From Onchocerca volvulus (lineage: Eukaryota; Nematoda; Chromadorea; Rhabditida; Onchocercidae), in the NCBI GenBank assembly GCA_000499405.2, contig HG738137.1, positions 26,719,928-26,783,927 of the forward strand: 64,000 nt of DNA, in the 5' to 3' direction. The translations under genes were made by a program, and so were the position numbers. Position 1 is the stretch's first letter. Every line of letters begins with the position of its first letter. Under the pieces are notes generated by a model. It was given only the letters and a program-made list of their open reading frames with translations. It searched no databases and was not told the origin of the DNA. Shown in pieces: positions 6,901 to 63,100 of this stretch.

Positions 6901-9900
6901 GAGAATATCTAGGCAAACTGATCACAGGTTTATTCTTTCATTTATCGCTTGTAGAGAAGAAAACTATCCAAGTGAATTATCAGATTGTTGAATTTATGTT
7001 GACCATCTGGCAACAGAAGCAGGGAGCCGGCTTTCTGATAAATTTGTCCTTTCACTTTGAAAGTTGGAATGAATTGTGTTGTTAAGATTTCTGCGCCAAA
7101 AGACGTCATTTGGAAGCAGGAATTCGGGAGTTATATTTTCTGATGACAGGAAATTCTCTGAATCTACATTATGTCCGGCGAGCAAAAATTTTAACAACTC
7201 TGGCGGTTCTCAAAGTTGAAGGAGTTTAATTGTTCCAGCAGCGCAACACATTCCTTTCGTTTCTCCATTAAATTTCTAGAGCCTTGCAATAAAGACATAC
7301 TTTATTCATAGTGTCACTGAGAACATGCGGGCTCAAATTATAATCATCAGCTGAATCGTACTGCAATCCAAGGCCATTGTAATCGCGTGATTGCTGAACA
7401 GAAGTCCTGTTTGATGTTGATCTCCTATTTCTCGCTAACGTCTTTCAGCTAGTCACAGTTTATTGCGTTCATTCTGTTCAGAACAAAGCAGATCTGAAGC
7501 TACAGAACACGATCGACGTGCTCGCAACCGTGCATCTTCAAGTCTGGCTGAATGTCGCTCTGTTCCCATTTTAGCCATTCTTTCTTTTGTTCGCTCGTTC
7601 GCGAATGCCTGTTCTTCTTCAGTTTGATTTGCGATTATTCATTGCAGTATTTCTATTCTGTGCGAGTACGACGATTTAAGTTTGATCTTCTTCGAGACAA
7701 TATTTGGATGAATTAAAGTAGATCTATCACACCCGAATTGTCCTCTAAATTGTTTGAGAACATCCAAGCAAATCAATCAATGGATTATTCTTTCCTTTGT
7801 CATTTGTAGGGAAGAAAAGAATTCCTTGACTGTCGATTTGCTGCTATTGCTGCATCGATCTACATCGTTGTAAAATAGTCGCTGTGTCCGTGTAGAAACT
7901 CCGAATCGAACCGTTTGTTGAACCCGAATTGTTGTCGAACTTTAGTTCCTAATGTTGGGAAAAATTATTTCACAATACTTGTGAGTATACAATTTTTTTG
8001 TTGATCCGTTTTGTAGATATAGAGATTGTCTGATTTGCCGACCAATATATAATTAATAGTCCATGTGAGAAGCAAACCGTCTAGATGTAAACAGCACAAT
8101 TCTAAAGATTGGCCCTGAGCTTTGTTGATGGTAAATGCAAACGGCAATAGAATTAGGAACTGCAATCTCTTAAACTGAAATGGCATATCTGTTGGAATCA
8201 TAGCAATGCGAGGAATGAGGATATCTTCACATTTGAAAAGTACTGTCAAGATTGTTGCTTCTACGACATTGCTCATTAATTTTTTCACTACAAACAGTGT
8301 GCAGTTGCAAAGTTTTGGCTGGTTGAAATTTGGCACGTCGATTTTCAATTGCGGTGCGTGTGGTGGCATCCCTGGCAGATCGAGTGAATTCAAAAATTTT
8401 GTTGGATAATTAATCGCTTCATCTACTTCCACAACAATATCGCCAGAATTGGGTATGACTGCCTTACTGCAAACTCCATGTATCATATTTTTCGTCGCAA
8501 CTTTATGCAAATCCTTATCAACGTCGGCATCAGGTATTTCAGCACATATTACATCATCGATTTCGCTTGAAGTGATTTTGCTATAAAGCTAGATCTACAA
8601 AGAGGCAATCCAAGGCATGACCTAATATTAGAAGTCAGAGAGATAATCCATAAATTGCCTGAACGAAACCCTTTATTTTACACTATCATGACGTCGACAT
8701 TCCTTAAATAACTAAAGAAGCAAAAACAAACGAAAAAGCTTAAATTAAGTCTCATTATCTACTTAAAAGTACGCCCTATTCGAATGCAATGTTGTATGAA
8801 AATTTCAAGTCAGTCGGTGAAAATTTGAAAAAAAAATTTGAAAAAAATCGATTGAGAATTTGCAAATTTCCATGGATCGTAACAGGGAATATGTACATTT
8901 TTATTTATATGATAATATCTAACATACATTTCCATAATCGAGTTTTTTTTCATTTAATTTGATCAATAAAATTTTAATCTACACATGTAATATTTGTCAA
9001 AATACTGCGAAATAATCGTCTTATAAGCTTTAGACAAACCAAAGTTGGCAAGCTAAATTTAATGGTGCAATAATTTTTGTCAACTTGATTAGTCATTGAT
9101 TAAATGAAAAAGATCGCAAAGTTGAAATAATTTTAGTGCGTAATTTAAGTAATAAGGGCTTATGAAATGATAAGATGACATGATCTCATTTGAGCCATAT
9201 ACCATACGCCTAAGAAAAAATTAATTTCGAAAAATGCTCGATGATTGGAATTTTTGATCATTATAATCTCTTATAGGTTTGATAATTCTGTTCTTACTCA
9301 TAAGTTGCGTATTGTGTGGTATTTTAATCTCTCGACGCCGTCATTTTTACTATTATATATATTGACTATTGCATTCTCAGTGTATGATTCATAATAATTA
9401 ATAAATTTAAAAATTATGGAAAATAAAAATGCTTCGTATGAAAATGTTGAATTTCAATAAATTGAACTGCTGAAAATCTTTAAACCAGAAATGTTTCAAC
9501 AAAATTTGAAAAAAAAAATTCCAATTTTATTTATAAACTTTTAACCTAACTTAAGTTGAACTGTTAGTATGTGGAAAGTTTAATTTCACATAATTTCTAA
9601 AAGATTTAAAAGTTCAATTTTTTATGAATTGACATCGTTATTAATTTATAGAAAATTAGCAACTGTGGGTAAACGAATTAAGAAATCGCCGTCATGGTCC
9701 GATTTTCATTTTCCACCTCCACCTTCAGGTAAATTTATCGCTTATTTATTTCATTTAATCGTAAATATAATTATCCAATCGACAGGTAAATTATTGGGTT
9801 TTTAGAAATAATAAATTATTGACATTCAAAGTTTTTTTTTTTTTTTTTTTTTTAATTGATTAATCCATAGTTCTAACAAGTTTATGATGTTTAATTGTTA

Positions 9901-12900
9901 AATAAGTTCTGTATTTATCCTGTCTGTTGTATTGTCGGAAAAAAAAAATATTCCTTCGGAAAGAATTAATAAATTGTCAAGTAATTAAGTGAACAAAAAT
10001 TAATTGCTTCAAATAAAATGCATCATTCATTGTGCACATTCAAAATTATAAACATAAATCAAATAATTACAATTTGACAATCAATGTTTTGAATATTAAT
10101 TAATCAAATTTTACAAAAATTTACAGATATATGTGGTATCAATGAATCAACAATGGAGCCATTATTGATTCCAAAAATACCTGCATCACCTGTTGTTCCC
10201 ACTATTCGGAGTTTAAGAGATGATCAGACAAGACTGAAAAAGTGATTTTCTCAAACAAATTATTATTTGAGTATGAAAATTTAGCCAAGACAAAAATTCT
10301 CTTTTTTTCTACTCAGTAATATTCTTGTATCAAGAATAAGTAAATAGAAATGACGAAGTAAACAAGTAAATAAATAAAAGAAAAAATGATGAAATATGGA
10401 AAAAGAAAGAGATATTTAAATATAAAATTTAGAATAAAAAATTGAATTGAATAAATATAAAAATTAATAGAAAAAGTAAATGAAAATAAAAAAGTACATG
10501 ATTAATGGAATAATTCAATTTAGGAATTCAATTAGCTTTGCTTTCAATCGATTCTAAGATTCGGAATTTTTCAGGCTTAGCAATGGCGACAGTCTTCATT
10601 ATGCTACTGCTGCTGTTCGAATTTCCGATTGGTACGTTTTATAGTTTTTCAAAAGTTTCTTTATATTATGTTCTCCTATTATTGAAGAAATCATATATAT
10701 CATTCAGAAATTTTGATATTTCTAAAAAATGCAGAGATAAATAATAAATTTTTAGCAAGACGAGACGACGAATTGAGAAATTCAGCATGGATCAGGTTGT
10801 ATTAGGTTCTGAATTGGGCCGTGGAAGGTTTACGGTAACTCGATCATGTTCCATTAATGGCAATAATTATGCTGCTAAAATAATAGTAGATAAGAATAAA
10901 CAAGCCATGTAATATTTTAAATTAATATAATAACCGAATGAACTTCCGTTTTTGATCGATAAATCTCAAAATGATAAGCAGATGATAAGAATCATAAAAC
11001 AAAAATATATCATCTTTCCTAATTTGCTTAGTTGATATTATTCTGTTTTGTTCATTATATTTTATTCAAATATTTGATAGAAACAAAAGTTTTGTTATTA
11101 ATCAATATAGATGCAATTCAATGTAAAATTTGAGAATGTAAGGAAGAGAAGACAAAATTTCAAACATATTTTCAAAATGAAAAGATCCAGTTGCTTTAGT
11201 CATATCTTGAAGAAAAAAAAAAGATCTTTTGATAAATTCGAAGTTTTATCAAAAGAAAAAGTTTTCCTTCTTCATAAATTCTCTAAATACAACAGTGAAA
11301 ATATATTGAAGGAAAGTTGTCAATGATAATTGATAGAAAATTTCAATATTCTTGCATCACATTTTTCCGAAATTTAGGAGTGTCTTTAATGATGAAGTGA
11401 AGATATTATCAAAAATTGACCATGAAAATCTCATCAAGGTTAGCATTTAAAACAATTTATTTCAACAGTTGTTAAACCTTCCTAGTTATTCGAGAGCTTG
11501 ACCTTTGTTAGTTTGGATCGCATAGTTTTAGTTGGACAAAGTAATCTGTTTGAAGTTTTGAGAAATATGTTTTACTGACTTTTTAATTATCCAGTTTTTG
11601 TCACCCACATATTAGTGTAAATATTGAGTAAATGTAAATTTTAATTTAAGAGAATCTGGAAATTTTTTTAGTAATTAAAATTAAATTTATAGCTCTATGG
11701 TATCGATGATAATTCAACAATGTATCTTGAATTAGCGCTATACGGGAATGTGCGACAATATTTGGCTTACAAGTCTGATGCCAAGTCTGAATTTTGATCA
11801 TTTTTAATTTTTCTTCGATGATAGAAATCATTGATGATAATTTCTTTTTATCTTATCCATTCCAACCATATATGTTTACTTTTACTAAATTTATTTTCGA
11901 CATTAAAATGTTCGTATTTTCAGTTATTTAAATATGTTACGATTAGTGATTGAAATAGCCGCCGGGATGAAATATCTGGAACAAAGGCAAATCGTTCATG
12001 GACATTTGTCACCTCAATGTATTTTGATTGATCAGAGGAAAACGATCAAAATTGCATCACCACGGGGACATCTTCATCATGCTCAGCTTCGTTATAGTGC
12101 TCCAGAATCTGTTATTGCTGTTCGTTTAATATTTTGCAATTGCTATTTTTGACGAGATATTTCAATTTGCAAAATTGTTGCAAAATTTCACTTTTCCATC
12201 TAACAAAAAGTAATAATTAGCAATAAAAAAAAGTAATAATTAGTAATGGCAAAAAGTAATGATTAGGTTTATAGTTAAAAAATGTAAATTGCACAAGTAA
12301 TAAAATAATGTTTGTAGAAACATAATAGTTACTAAATATTCAGAATGAGAGGTAAGACTTTAATTGAAATGAAAGAAGCATTATAAGGATTAATAAAATT
12401 TAATTCGACAATTCATGAATACGAAAGTAGCCATTATCCCTGAGTTATAGATATGACAATTTAATCGGGAAATAATAATATGCTACTTAAAATTGATTAA
12501 GTTGCATTATATATTGATCTAAGTTGCTTAGTTAATCCTTCTCGCCGTGAAATTTCTGTCATAAACATAAAATTGAATTCTTGCAATAACTTGAATGAGA
12601 ACAAACAATAAAGAACTTATCGGAATTGTTTTTCAGAATGAATGGAGCAATAAAAGTGATGTTTGGTCATTTGCGGTAACAACTTGGGAACTTTTTAATA
12701 ATTGTACGATGATACCATTTGCCGAATTGACAAATGCTCAATTAATTGATAATGCTAAACATATCTGTAGTGGACATAATGCTGTTAGTTTCTTTGAGTA
12801 TTCGTGTTAAATCCATCTCAAATTTAAGTACAAATTAGTTTATTTATTTAAATTGTAAGAAGATCTTTTATACCTGTAGAATAAAAATCATTAAACGATT

Positions 12901-15124: not shown

Positions 15125-15684
15125 AATTTCTGGAAAATTTCTTGCATCGTACCGCTATATCCCGAGATCAATCCAAGGTATTCCGAATTGATTTTATTAT
15201 TGGCAGCTTAGAAATTCGATAAATCACGATAGGTTCTCATTAAGAAATAGTCTAAAAATTGGAAGCGAAATTCAAATACAATATTCAATGAAAATTTAAT
15301 CATAAAAATTTGCTTTTTCCCTATAAATGGTGCTTGGAAAAATTAACTTCTTAATGACCTGAAATAATTAAGCTCCTGAATATGAAAAATTTTCGATCTC
15401 TTTTAAAATTGACAATTCAAATTTTATCAAAAAATTAGTTTCTTAAATGGTGAAAATGATTTCATTATCGATAGATCGATAGATCTCTCAAATTCAAAAA
15501 ATAAAAGAAAAAACTGAAAATAAATTTAGAACCATCAATTCTGTTGTATCATCATTAAATGATTTATCCATTTCACATGTGAAGATTTATCGATCTGTCG
15601 GAAATGATTTTCTTATTCATCCTCATTCATTGATTTTTCCAAATTTTTCGATCGATTTTAAAAATCCGATCTAAAAATCTCGAC

Positions 15685-15920
15685 AAGTTATAGGCATACC
15701 AACCTGGTGGAGTTTTATCATTTTTCTGTTTTGAAAAATGTTCATCTGCCGCTTGAGCGGTTCTTATTGCTATTTCTGGAGTTTTTGGTTACAAATGCAT
15801 TTATAGTTTCTCATTTTCAACTGCATTAATATGTACTTCTGCAAGTTCGACAACGGAAAAATCTTTTCGATTGAGTCCATCACACATCTCTGTAATGCTT
15901 AGCTTTCTTAATTCATTCAT
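15685..15920 (-). pseudogene. gatA: Bacterial gatA 5' fragment (Glu-tRNA(Gln) amidotransferase subunit A), Rickettsiales-like
   Basis: GatA is the amidase subunit of GatCAB, which converts misacylated Glu-tRNA(Gln). Reading leftwards from an ATG at 15920 gives the N-terminal helices of a rickettsial-type GatA: ELRKLSITEM, then FSVVELAEVHINAVENEKL, then a stop. With two small indels (a 2-base insertion near 15797 and one extra A in an A-run near 15783, net 3) the frame resumes as NAFVTK and PEIAIRTAQAADEHFSKQK. A further shift yields GMPIT before similarity ends. About 75 of the usual 480-490 residues remain, so no function is possible. No introns interrupt it. The wording is closer to bacterial than to mitochondrial GatA (from memory of the family). 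I infer a nuclear copy of Wolbachia or related DNA. Confidence 0.75.
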
Positions 15921-17129
15921 TAATTTCAATTTTTTTTGCAAAACATTAATTATTACAACGATAGGAAATTCTGAGCCGATTAATCAAGCTCAGAAAACAT
16001 TACTGCACTTTGAGAAACAAAGAAGGCATATTTCAAACTATCTGACAACTTAATAATCAATTCTGATTAAGAACTACTTGATCGTCAGAAGATTAAAATC
16101 CTTGCTTATCTGAGTTTCATTTACCTTTTCAGCATTACAAAGACTGTCAAAATATTTCAACTGACAAATTTATCGCATGATTATTAAACCTTAAGATCAG
16201 AGAAGATGTTGTTTGTAATTGAGATCAAAAATCAAGAAATTTTTCAGAAAGTTCGAAAGAATAAATAAAAATTCTTTGTGATCGTTATGCTGTCCAGTTT
16301 TACACTTTCTTCTTGAGATAATGCTTTTCCTCTCTCAAATATTTTTTCTTTTTGTTAATGGATTATTATCATATCTACATTGCTTCAATCAATTCCAAAA
16401 TGTGGAAAAAATGTACTGCTTCGGCATTACTTCAAAAAATCCGCGAATTTCTTGATGACAATGAAATGTATTAGTTCCGGAAACCGGTTTTTCCGCCACG
16501 AAAGATGGTTAGTTTTTTACGTTACCATTACTTATCACTATGAGCAGTTCTAATCGGAACTTTCCAGTCATTTAGTAGAATATATGAACTAATGAAATTC
16601 ATGTTTTCTTTTATTCGTATCAATTCGTTCGACTTTTTTTTTTCCGAAATATTACGCTAATTTCCCGAAATTTGCAGAATAGTGTAATATTTCGTGAAGA
16701 ACATCGTAATGTAATTGCTAAAAACTTTCAGTGAAGAAAGAAAAAGGATCAACAAAGCTTATATATCATATTATTATCATTAGTAATCTTAGCGTTGCTA
16801 ATAATTTGAAGATCGCTCGTGTATTTCATGGATAATATCAGTATCAGTACAGATAAGTTTGATAGCAACTTATCAAGAAGTTCGCGTCCAAATATCATTT
16901 GCTTACTAGCCTAATTTCAAGTTTAATTCAGTGAACAGAAGAACCTTTTATCAACTATCTCTGATTATACTTTGAGCTTTTATTAAACCTTAACAGGCGT
17001 TATTTATGGTTCTATCACGCCTTTCTCCGCTTTATTTATCCTTCCGTTCGATCAATTTGTTATATCAGCAAAGTTGATTTGAGTTAAACGAAAGGTCCCC
17101 TTTCTCCTTCCCTTCAAACTTTTCAAAGT

Positions 17130-60100: not shown

Positions 60101-63100
60101 TTTTTATTTGACATCATAAAATTCGCCCCGAGTCAAATCAACCGCTATCTTTCCACTCCCATTTTCTGATAATTGATGTGAAATTATCTCAGCTGATCGA
60201 TCGTTTTGTGGCTGAACATGCAAATTTGTAGTTAATTTTAATTCTTTACGTGTCGACACAAAGTAGAAGATTTTAGGTAAGCATTTATTCCAACCGCTGA
60301 TATCGATCGAGGAATTACAGGCAGTGTTTGCCTGAAATCTCCTATAAGCAATACTAATGCGTTCCCAAATGATCTGATGTTTACATGCAAATCTTGCAAT
60401 GATCGATCATCAGTAACTTCGAGCGATTTTTGCCATTGTACATTCATCCCAAACAATAAATTTGCATTTTTGCAATAATTTTCCCATGTCGGGTGCTTCA
60501 GAAATGTTGCACGTGGGAGTTTCGATGAATTGCATGTTTAATGGCAATTTCAAAGCGGGATGACCAATTTTTTCCACCTGGTAGCAATGTTGCAGCTATT
60601 CCGGACGATGCAGAGCTCGGGCTATGTGATTTTGGGATCGAATTGCTAATAGAATCAGTCTAATTAGGAAGGATCTGCTGTTTATCTTTGACGTCTTTCA
60701 GCTATTCTCAACCGTGCTCGCAACCCTGCATCCTCAAGTCTGGCTTCACGTCGCTCTGCTCGTATTTAAGTTATTCTTCGTCTTTTTCTCTCTTTCACTG
60801 ACGCCCGTTCTTCAGTTTGATTCGATATTAGTCATCGTTTTTTTTTTTTTTTTCTTTCAATTAATCATTATTTCCGCTCTACGAGCACGACTACCTAAGT
60901 TTGATCTTCTGCAAAGCATTGTTTGAATGAACTAAATCAAGTCGATTGCACGGAATGTTCTCAAAAAAAATGGACTGCCCTCGAAATTGCGAGCAGTCGA
61001 TTGCCCCGAACTGTCTTCAAAATTATTTGAGATGAGAATATCCAAGCAAACTGATCACTGGATTATTCTTTCATTTTATTGTACAGAAGAACAGAATTCT
61101 TTAACCGCCGATTTAGCTACTATGTGTCATTGGAAAACTATCGCTCTGTCGAATGTAGAAACTTCGAACTAAACTGTCTGTTAAACTCGAATTGCTGTCG
61201 AACTTGAAGTGATTTTGCTCCAAAATCCGGATCTTCCAAATCCTTTTGAGAACTCTTTCTCCATTCCTGATCTCCAGCGTATCGTTTTATGATTGGTTAA
61301 TCTCACTTTGTTTATCTGTTGATCGAACTTTTCAACGATAAACATGTTTATTCTAACGAGGAAGCAAATAAAAGTAGGTATATCTACATGGAAACACATG
61401 CCTATTTATGCAAAATTGTGTCAAATTTTTAAATCAATCGATGAAGAACTTAAAACGTTGTGTGGCAAAAAACAACGAATACTTACATTTTTATTTATAA
61501 GATAGATTTGGCACAAAATCTTCTAATTCAATTGAAATCGAAATGTTTTAAATTTGAAAAAAAAAAAAAAGAAAAAAATCCCTTACGAGTTCTTGAACAA
61601 TTGTTTCAAAACATTCTTTTTGCCAATATGGATTCAGATGCATGAACACACGACCTTTCCAGATTCGTGCAAAATGTTTTGCTTGCCAGGAGAGAGCCTA
61701 AATAGAACATTTTTGAAAAACTTTATTCAATATATGGAAAAAATGCATTTAAAAATAATTAGAAAACAACTGTGACTTCTTTGTAGAGAGGTTGTAACGA
61801 GCGTATAGCATTGAATTGTGGAAGAGCATCAAATATGGCCGATACACAGGTGGCACAAGGCTGCAAATATATTTCAGTTTTTTCTTTTTTCATTCGCTAC
61901 ATTTTCTATATCTTTGCGAAAATTCGTTCAGAACATTTTGAAGACGTAACGATTATAATTATCTCTAATCAATTTTCAATATTCAAAATTTCTTTTATTT
62001 TTGCATAAGAACCATAGTAACTGAAAAGCAACTTACTCGATGGAAGAAATGGCATTTGGTAGCTCGAAAATGAAGTAGAATAACTTGAGTAAGGTTTTCC
62101 ATATTCAAATGAGTGGCTAATGAAACAAGTTCCCAGATATCTACGTCTTCCCCGATCGATGTTAGGCCACCGTACAAAAATGATATAAAATAATGAACTG
62201 CAGTTCGAGAATACCTTAATTCTTGAACTTCATTAATCTTAACAAAGTAATATTCTGCTTGCATTAAATTATTTGTGAGCAATTTATAAAACCATTTGAT
62301 AGCCACTTTTAAATATTTCTATTTGATCGTCCTTTTATTTATTCATTTATCAGTCATGATTAAATGTATCTTTTATTGTCATTTGATAGTTAATAACTAT
62401 CAATTAATAAATTCATTCATTCATTTAAATAATACTCGTCTACCATTTTTTTTTTACTGTCATCTCCATATTTCCATCAAAACACAAATGCTATTTCAAA
62501 GTGCATTCCCAATTTCGGCTCTGTCATTCATTTCTCTTAACAGATGGATTCAACAAATTAATTGACAACTTACCCTTTCAATTCAATGAATTCACATTGT
62601 CGTTTCACCAAATGATCTTTGAAATATGGACATGTGGCTGATAAAATACATCTAAATTATTGATATGATCATAAAAAGATCAATTTTAATATTTGGACAA
62701 AAACAGAATAAATTCGTTTAAGATGTCTCAAAAATACCTTAAAAAGGATCTTTCAGAAAAGATTTCTTCGGAAAAATTAGAAATATGTAAGAAAATAAAT
62801 TTCTTAGTAGTTGATAGTTATGAAGTTGTCATCAAGATGTCAAGAAAAAATCGACAAACCGATGTGCAAACAGCTCTCCATTATCAGTTTTGATAACAAC
62901 ATCTGTATCGATATTATTGAGGTACATATTTAAGAGGTCCGCTGCTAATTTGCATGAAGGAGTTTTATCACCAGTACACATTGACACTAAAATATTTTTT
63001 AATTAATACAGTACTTTTATTAATTTCAATGATATAAATTTGAAAATTAATGATCAATAGATGATTGAAGTAGCACTTCCTTTTGTTACATTATTGATCA

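Follow-up and report, generated by a model that had tools for sequence, protein, structure and literature searches.

Our study identified the minus strand of positions 15705-15966 of the window (the whole 64-kb stretch of DNA from Onchocerca volvulus, the parasite of river blindness, that was analyzed here) as degraded Wolbachia DNA, which is made up of ~45 bases from upstream of the symbiont gene gatA followed by its codons 1-71. We regard it as nearly certain that this segment is a nuclear Wolbachia transfer (nuwt) in O. volvulus. Its earlier characterization, in a preliminary description of the window, as dead nuclear DNA copied from the gatA of a Wolbachia-like endosymbiont is well supported, among other things by the 90.1% nucleotide identity to the Wolbachia of Onchocerca ochengi (blastn; 262 columns; the best of seven gatA loci), the single-copy flanks, and the broken reading frame.

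We propose that the source was a short piece of chromosome from a Wolbachia of the group made up of the strains of Onchocerca, Dirofilaria, and Dipetalonema, by identity nearest to the Onchocerca strain. This piece, with the start of gatA up to codon 71 and the region preceding the gene, would have been joined into the germline DNA of an ancestor of O. volvulus, most likely as filler DNA at a repaired germline break. Substitutions and small indels have since broken it, presumably in the course of neutral decay, and the fragment is presumably without function, as its broken frame suggests, and without expression.

Sequence identity and damage to the reading frame

The other Wolbachia loci are less similar to the fragment than that of the O. 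ochengi strain: nucleotide identity is 87.0% for the strain of Dirofilaria immitis, 84.6% for that of Dipetalonema caudispina, and 72-80.5% for the remaining four. When the window was compared with the whole genome of the O. ochengi Wolbachia (957,990 bases), the fragment was the sole strong match (E 1.8e-93); the second-best match had an E value of 6.7e-4, and the best one in a control with the reversed window had 0.002. The conceptual peptide gave 188 pattern matches in a scan of one-per-species genomes, a set from which records very near the window's own genome may be missing, and a relative was encoded at seven loci, all seven of them titled Wolbachia. As a result of their short length, probably, the two open pieces of the fragment gave no amidase match in scans against Pfam and NCBIfam, where a single weak Pfam match (E 0.049) was meaningless; a search of solved structures returned one weak match, to GatA (4wj3_A, E 0.024).

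The start codon of gatA lies at 15918-15920 on the minus strand, and the peptides previously quoted from this strand as beginning at the gene's own ATG, ELRKLSITEM among them, are all present. The preliminary description had given the extent as 15685-15920; the gatA start is indeed within that range, but the supported stretch is the one reported here, since the bacterial DNA begins upstream of the ATG. This non-coding stretch is also common to Wolbachia, and it carries a net gain of one base, the position of which varies with the alignment.

The gatA gene of the O. ochengi Wolbachia is intact, with 491 codons plus a stop, and a frame of about 490 codons would be expected of any functional copy; in the fragment, which is truncated as noted earlier, the match is clear as far as codon 71, and the frame is interrupted before that point. 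An alignment with the seven Wolbachia loci located both of the indels and the early stop that had been described. First, two inserted bases at 15804-15805 (minus strand) shift the frame and thereby yield the stop at 15801-15803; consequently, the first open stretch (15801-15920, minus strand; from the translation and the indel map) runs from the original ATG through gatA residues 1-39. Second, one inserted base at 15788, on the same strand, causes another frameshift.

It could be argued that the fragment was recruited to a new role, for example, as a small transcript or regulatory element in the vicinity of its neighbors, and it has been reported that several Wolbachia-like sequences are transcribed in filariae free of Wolbachia (PMC2882956). 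However, the gatA frame has not been preserved, and we give such recruitment hardly any credence beside the reading of the fragment as a decaying nuwt.

The nucleotide match fades past 15705. On the minus strand, ten residues in another frame (15674-15703) resemble the next residues of GatA and may be a diverged tail of the gene, which we consider suggestive at most: at the protein level they are top-scoring among 63,968 minus-strand windows of ten residues, the frame having been picked after it was seen, and at the DNA level they are equalled by 4-15% of random windows, depending on the strain compared. Only if this tail were gatA would the coding part have a third indel, a loss of two bases after 15705, and it is not counted here.

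Counted against the O. ochengi strain, synonymous and non-synonymous differences number 9 and 9 in the fragment, as opposed to 12 and 8 in the living symbiont of D. immitis; part of the divergence of the fragment may thus predate the transfer. The ratio alone is no clean sign of relaxed constraint, but the frameshifts do show it. The changes found only in the fragment, which likewise speak against a new role, comprise 6 in the upstream part (44 columns) as well as 5, 1, and 3 at the first, second, and third codon positions, respectively (71 columns each).

Genomic setting and alternative origins

The fragment is located at C2:26735632-26735893, on a contig of 28.3 Mb, within single-copy sequence and with host exons on both sides. 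The genome copy that we searched has 94,684,704 bases in 115 contigs, ~1.7 Mb below the 96,340,582 printed for GCA_000499405.2 (PMC12693587). In this copy, searches with both flanks returned the window alone; a second copy of either flank, which could represent an empty site, was sought with each of them, and none was present besides the window.

The placement between two animal genes given in the preliminary description was confirmed. On the upstream side are exons of a protein tyrosine kinase (PF07714; 11907-14112, plus strand), together with an F5/8 type C domain at 2297-2608; on the downstream side are exons with a SAND domain (PF01342; 19365-20118, plus strand). Four open stretches were tried in the kinase region: PF07714 exceeded the family cut-off in two, narrowly missed it in a third, and had no match in the fourth (10748-10912). 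The two PF01342 matches, both above the cut-off, are the sole two reported in the whole genome. These domains fit the earlier labels of DDR-like and GMEB-like for the two neighbors. Elsewhere in the window, on the minus strand, positions 60238-60537 gave a PIF1 match above the cut-off, and positions 7965-8588 a PIF1 2B match that stayed below the threshold; these remnants of PIF1-type helicases are perhaps Helitron transposons, and in Onchocerca the occurrence of nuwts has been reported to be associated regionally with helitron density (PMC12693587).

O. volvulus carries Wolbachia, on account of which bacterial reads were present, and the fragment might be explained as contamination from the living symbiont of the sequenced worms or as a chimeric join with its DNA. 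However, the living symbiont (wOv) has been reported to be 99.51% identical to the O. ochengi strain (PMC5310847), whereas the fragment is 10% different from that strain, used here as a stand-in for wOv, and is frameshifted; the fragment is thus not the living symbiont. Its embedding in the single-copy sequence of so long a contig also argues against an artifact, which we consider highly improbable. The presence of live Wolbachia in O. volvulus (wOv; PMC5310847) likewise leads us to reject the suggestion of the preliminary description that the fragment, in a species now lacking the symbiont, would be the fossil of a lost symbiosis.

A different origin would be a degraded mitochondrial-type GatA of the nematode (QRSL1) or another nuclear amidase, and exons of the amidase family without bacterial similarity do occur at three places in the genome (C2:7.50 Mb, C3:2.32 Mb, and C3:8.62 Mb). 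When the GatA of the O. ochengi Wolbachia was used as the query, the fragment was nevertheless the best of 15 genome matches, with 80% identity over residues 1-71 and two stops; the segments of the presumed native amidases match Wolbachia GatA at 25-50%, but they cover residues from 106 on and none of residues 1-71. A stronger argument than these protein identities is the non-coding bacterial DNA shared upstream of the ATG. By these comparisons, the probability that remains for a native amidase is, in our opinion, minimal.

Timing of the transfer and related insertions

With the fragment taken as a nuwt, its divergence was compared with that of living strains. Among 261 columns that set the fragment against the O. 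ochengi strain and the D. immitis strain, 218 show no difference. The fragment alone deviates in 15, the O. ochengi strain alone in 8, and the D. immitis strain alone in 14; all three differ in 2, and 4 are gapped. The 8 sites where the O. ochengi strain deviates, and where the fragment has the base of the Dirofilaria strain, were compared with the other five strains: ~4 of them are clear private changes of the O. ochengi strain, 3 are mixed, and at 1 the other five side with the O. ochengi strain. A tree built from 8 rows and 257 columns groups the fragment with the Onchocerca, Dirofilaria, and Dipetalonema strains (ultrafast bootstrap 97, SH-aLRT 95). The narrower clades of fragment and Onchocerca, Onchocerca and Dirofilaria, fragment and Dirofilaria, and all three together (p-AU 0.242, 0.248, 0.258, and 0.248, respectively) are all missing from the best tree, and none of them is rejected with 257 columns. 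The last of these clades, which unites the fragment with the supergroup C strains (Onchocerca and Dirofilaria) and excludes the supergroup J strain (Dipetalonema), is the one that a supergroup C origin would predict; by identity, the fragment is nearest to those two supergroup C strains.

As far as these alignments indicate, the transfer is not recent, and they fit a date on either side of the split between the Onchocerca symbiont and that of Dirofilaria. The earlier proposal that the divergence of the fragment dates the transfer is therefore workable in part, with 257 columns leaving the branching order unsettled. An insertion around or before that split, with a possible orthologous copy between the kinase and SAND genes in other filariae, seems to us rather doubtful; if it were true, such orthologous copies could calibrate the symbiosis.

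The fragment is accompanied by many other insertions. When 4.5 kb of the O. ochengi Wolbachia around gatA were compared with the worm genome, 29 segments matched, the fragment included (E up to 1e-3); of the other 28, eight touch gatA, one of them at 71% identity, which indicates that the insertion of gatA pieces is routine in the O. volvulus genome. One further insertion of the gatA start, ~100 bases long and 90% identical to the O. ochengi strain, was found at C5:260721-260821. In symbiont coordinates it starts ~20 bases further upstream than the fragment and ends at codon 12, so that, with its different end points, it seems to be an insertion of its own. At two places ~1 megabase apart (C3:5012761-5013446 and C3:6010552-6011380), Wolbachia pieces have an identical rearranged order and orientation, which suggests one mosaic insertion that would later have been duplicated in the worm genome.

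Four further stretches of 4.5 kb, taken arbitrarily from the O. ochengi Wolbachia, yielded 15, 16, 15, and 11 matching segments; together, these 57 segments (E up to 1e-3) per 18,004 query bases correspond to ~3,000 genome-wide. At E up to 1e-15, the 44 segments that are left correspond to ~2,300, compared with the 531-653 given in the published reports. This is a rough hint that the published nuwt catalogues are incomplete, and it is important to consider that segments of one insertion are counted apart here, that methods and thresholds differ, and that conserved genes were left unsorted.

Comparison with catalogued insertions

Such insertions have already been described in O. volvulus. Cotton et al. 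(2016) reported 531 matches with NUCMER as well as 576 gene-based regions, of which 98% were fragmented, and described nuwts as largely non-functional (PMC5310847); Vancaester et al. (2025) reported 653 regions in the species and gave 434 bp as the mean length of Onchocerca insertions from supergroup C (PMC12693587). The novelty implied in the preliminary description does not hold, given that insertions of this kind had been catalogued for O. volvulus, apparently from the same assembly, in these reports, and the fragment is already known in kind. It was recovered in our own genome searches with E values of 2.4e-92 for DNA and 2.6e-26 for protein, obtained with programs other than those of the catalogues; it would probably pass their published thresholds, and its exact locus is probably listed in those of 2016 and 2025.

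By itself, the fragment is of little weight, being one among hundreds of dead symbiont scraps in the O. volvulus genome. Jointly, such scraps record which Wolbachia inhabited the ancestors of the worm, and the fragment agrees with a long association with the type of strain now found in Onchocerca and its relatives. In comparison with the gatA of the O. ochengi Wolbachia, it retains 90% nucleotide identity, the upstream region included, but the gene of the symbiont has 491 intact codons, whereas the fragment has 71 and is frameshifted. In comparison with the nuwts of O. volvulus as described in the catalogues, it comes from the same species and, apparently, the same assembly, and it resembles insertions that are likewise short, mostly fragmented, and largely non-functional; with respect to what those reports describe, no difference was found.
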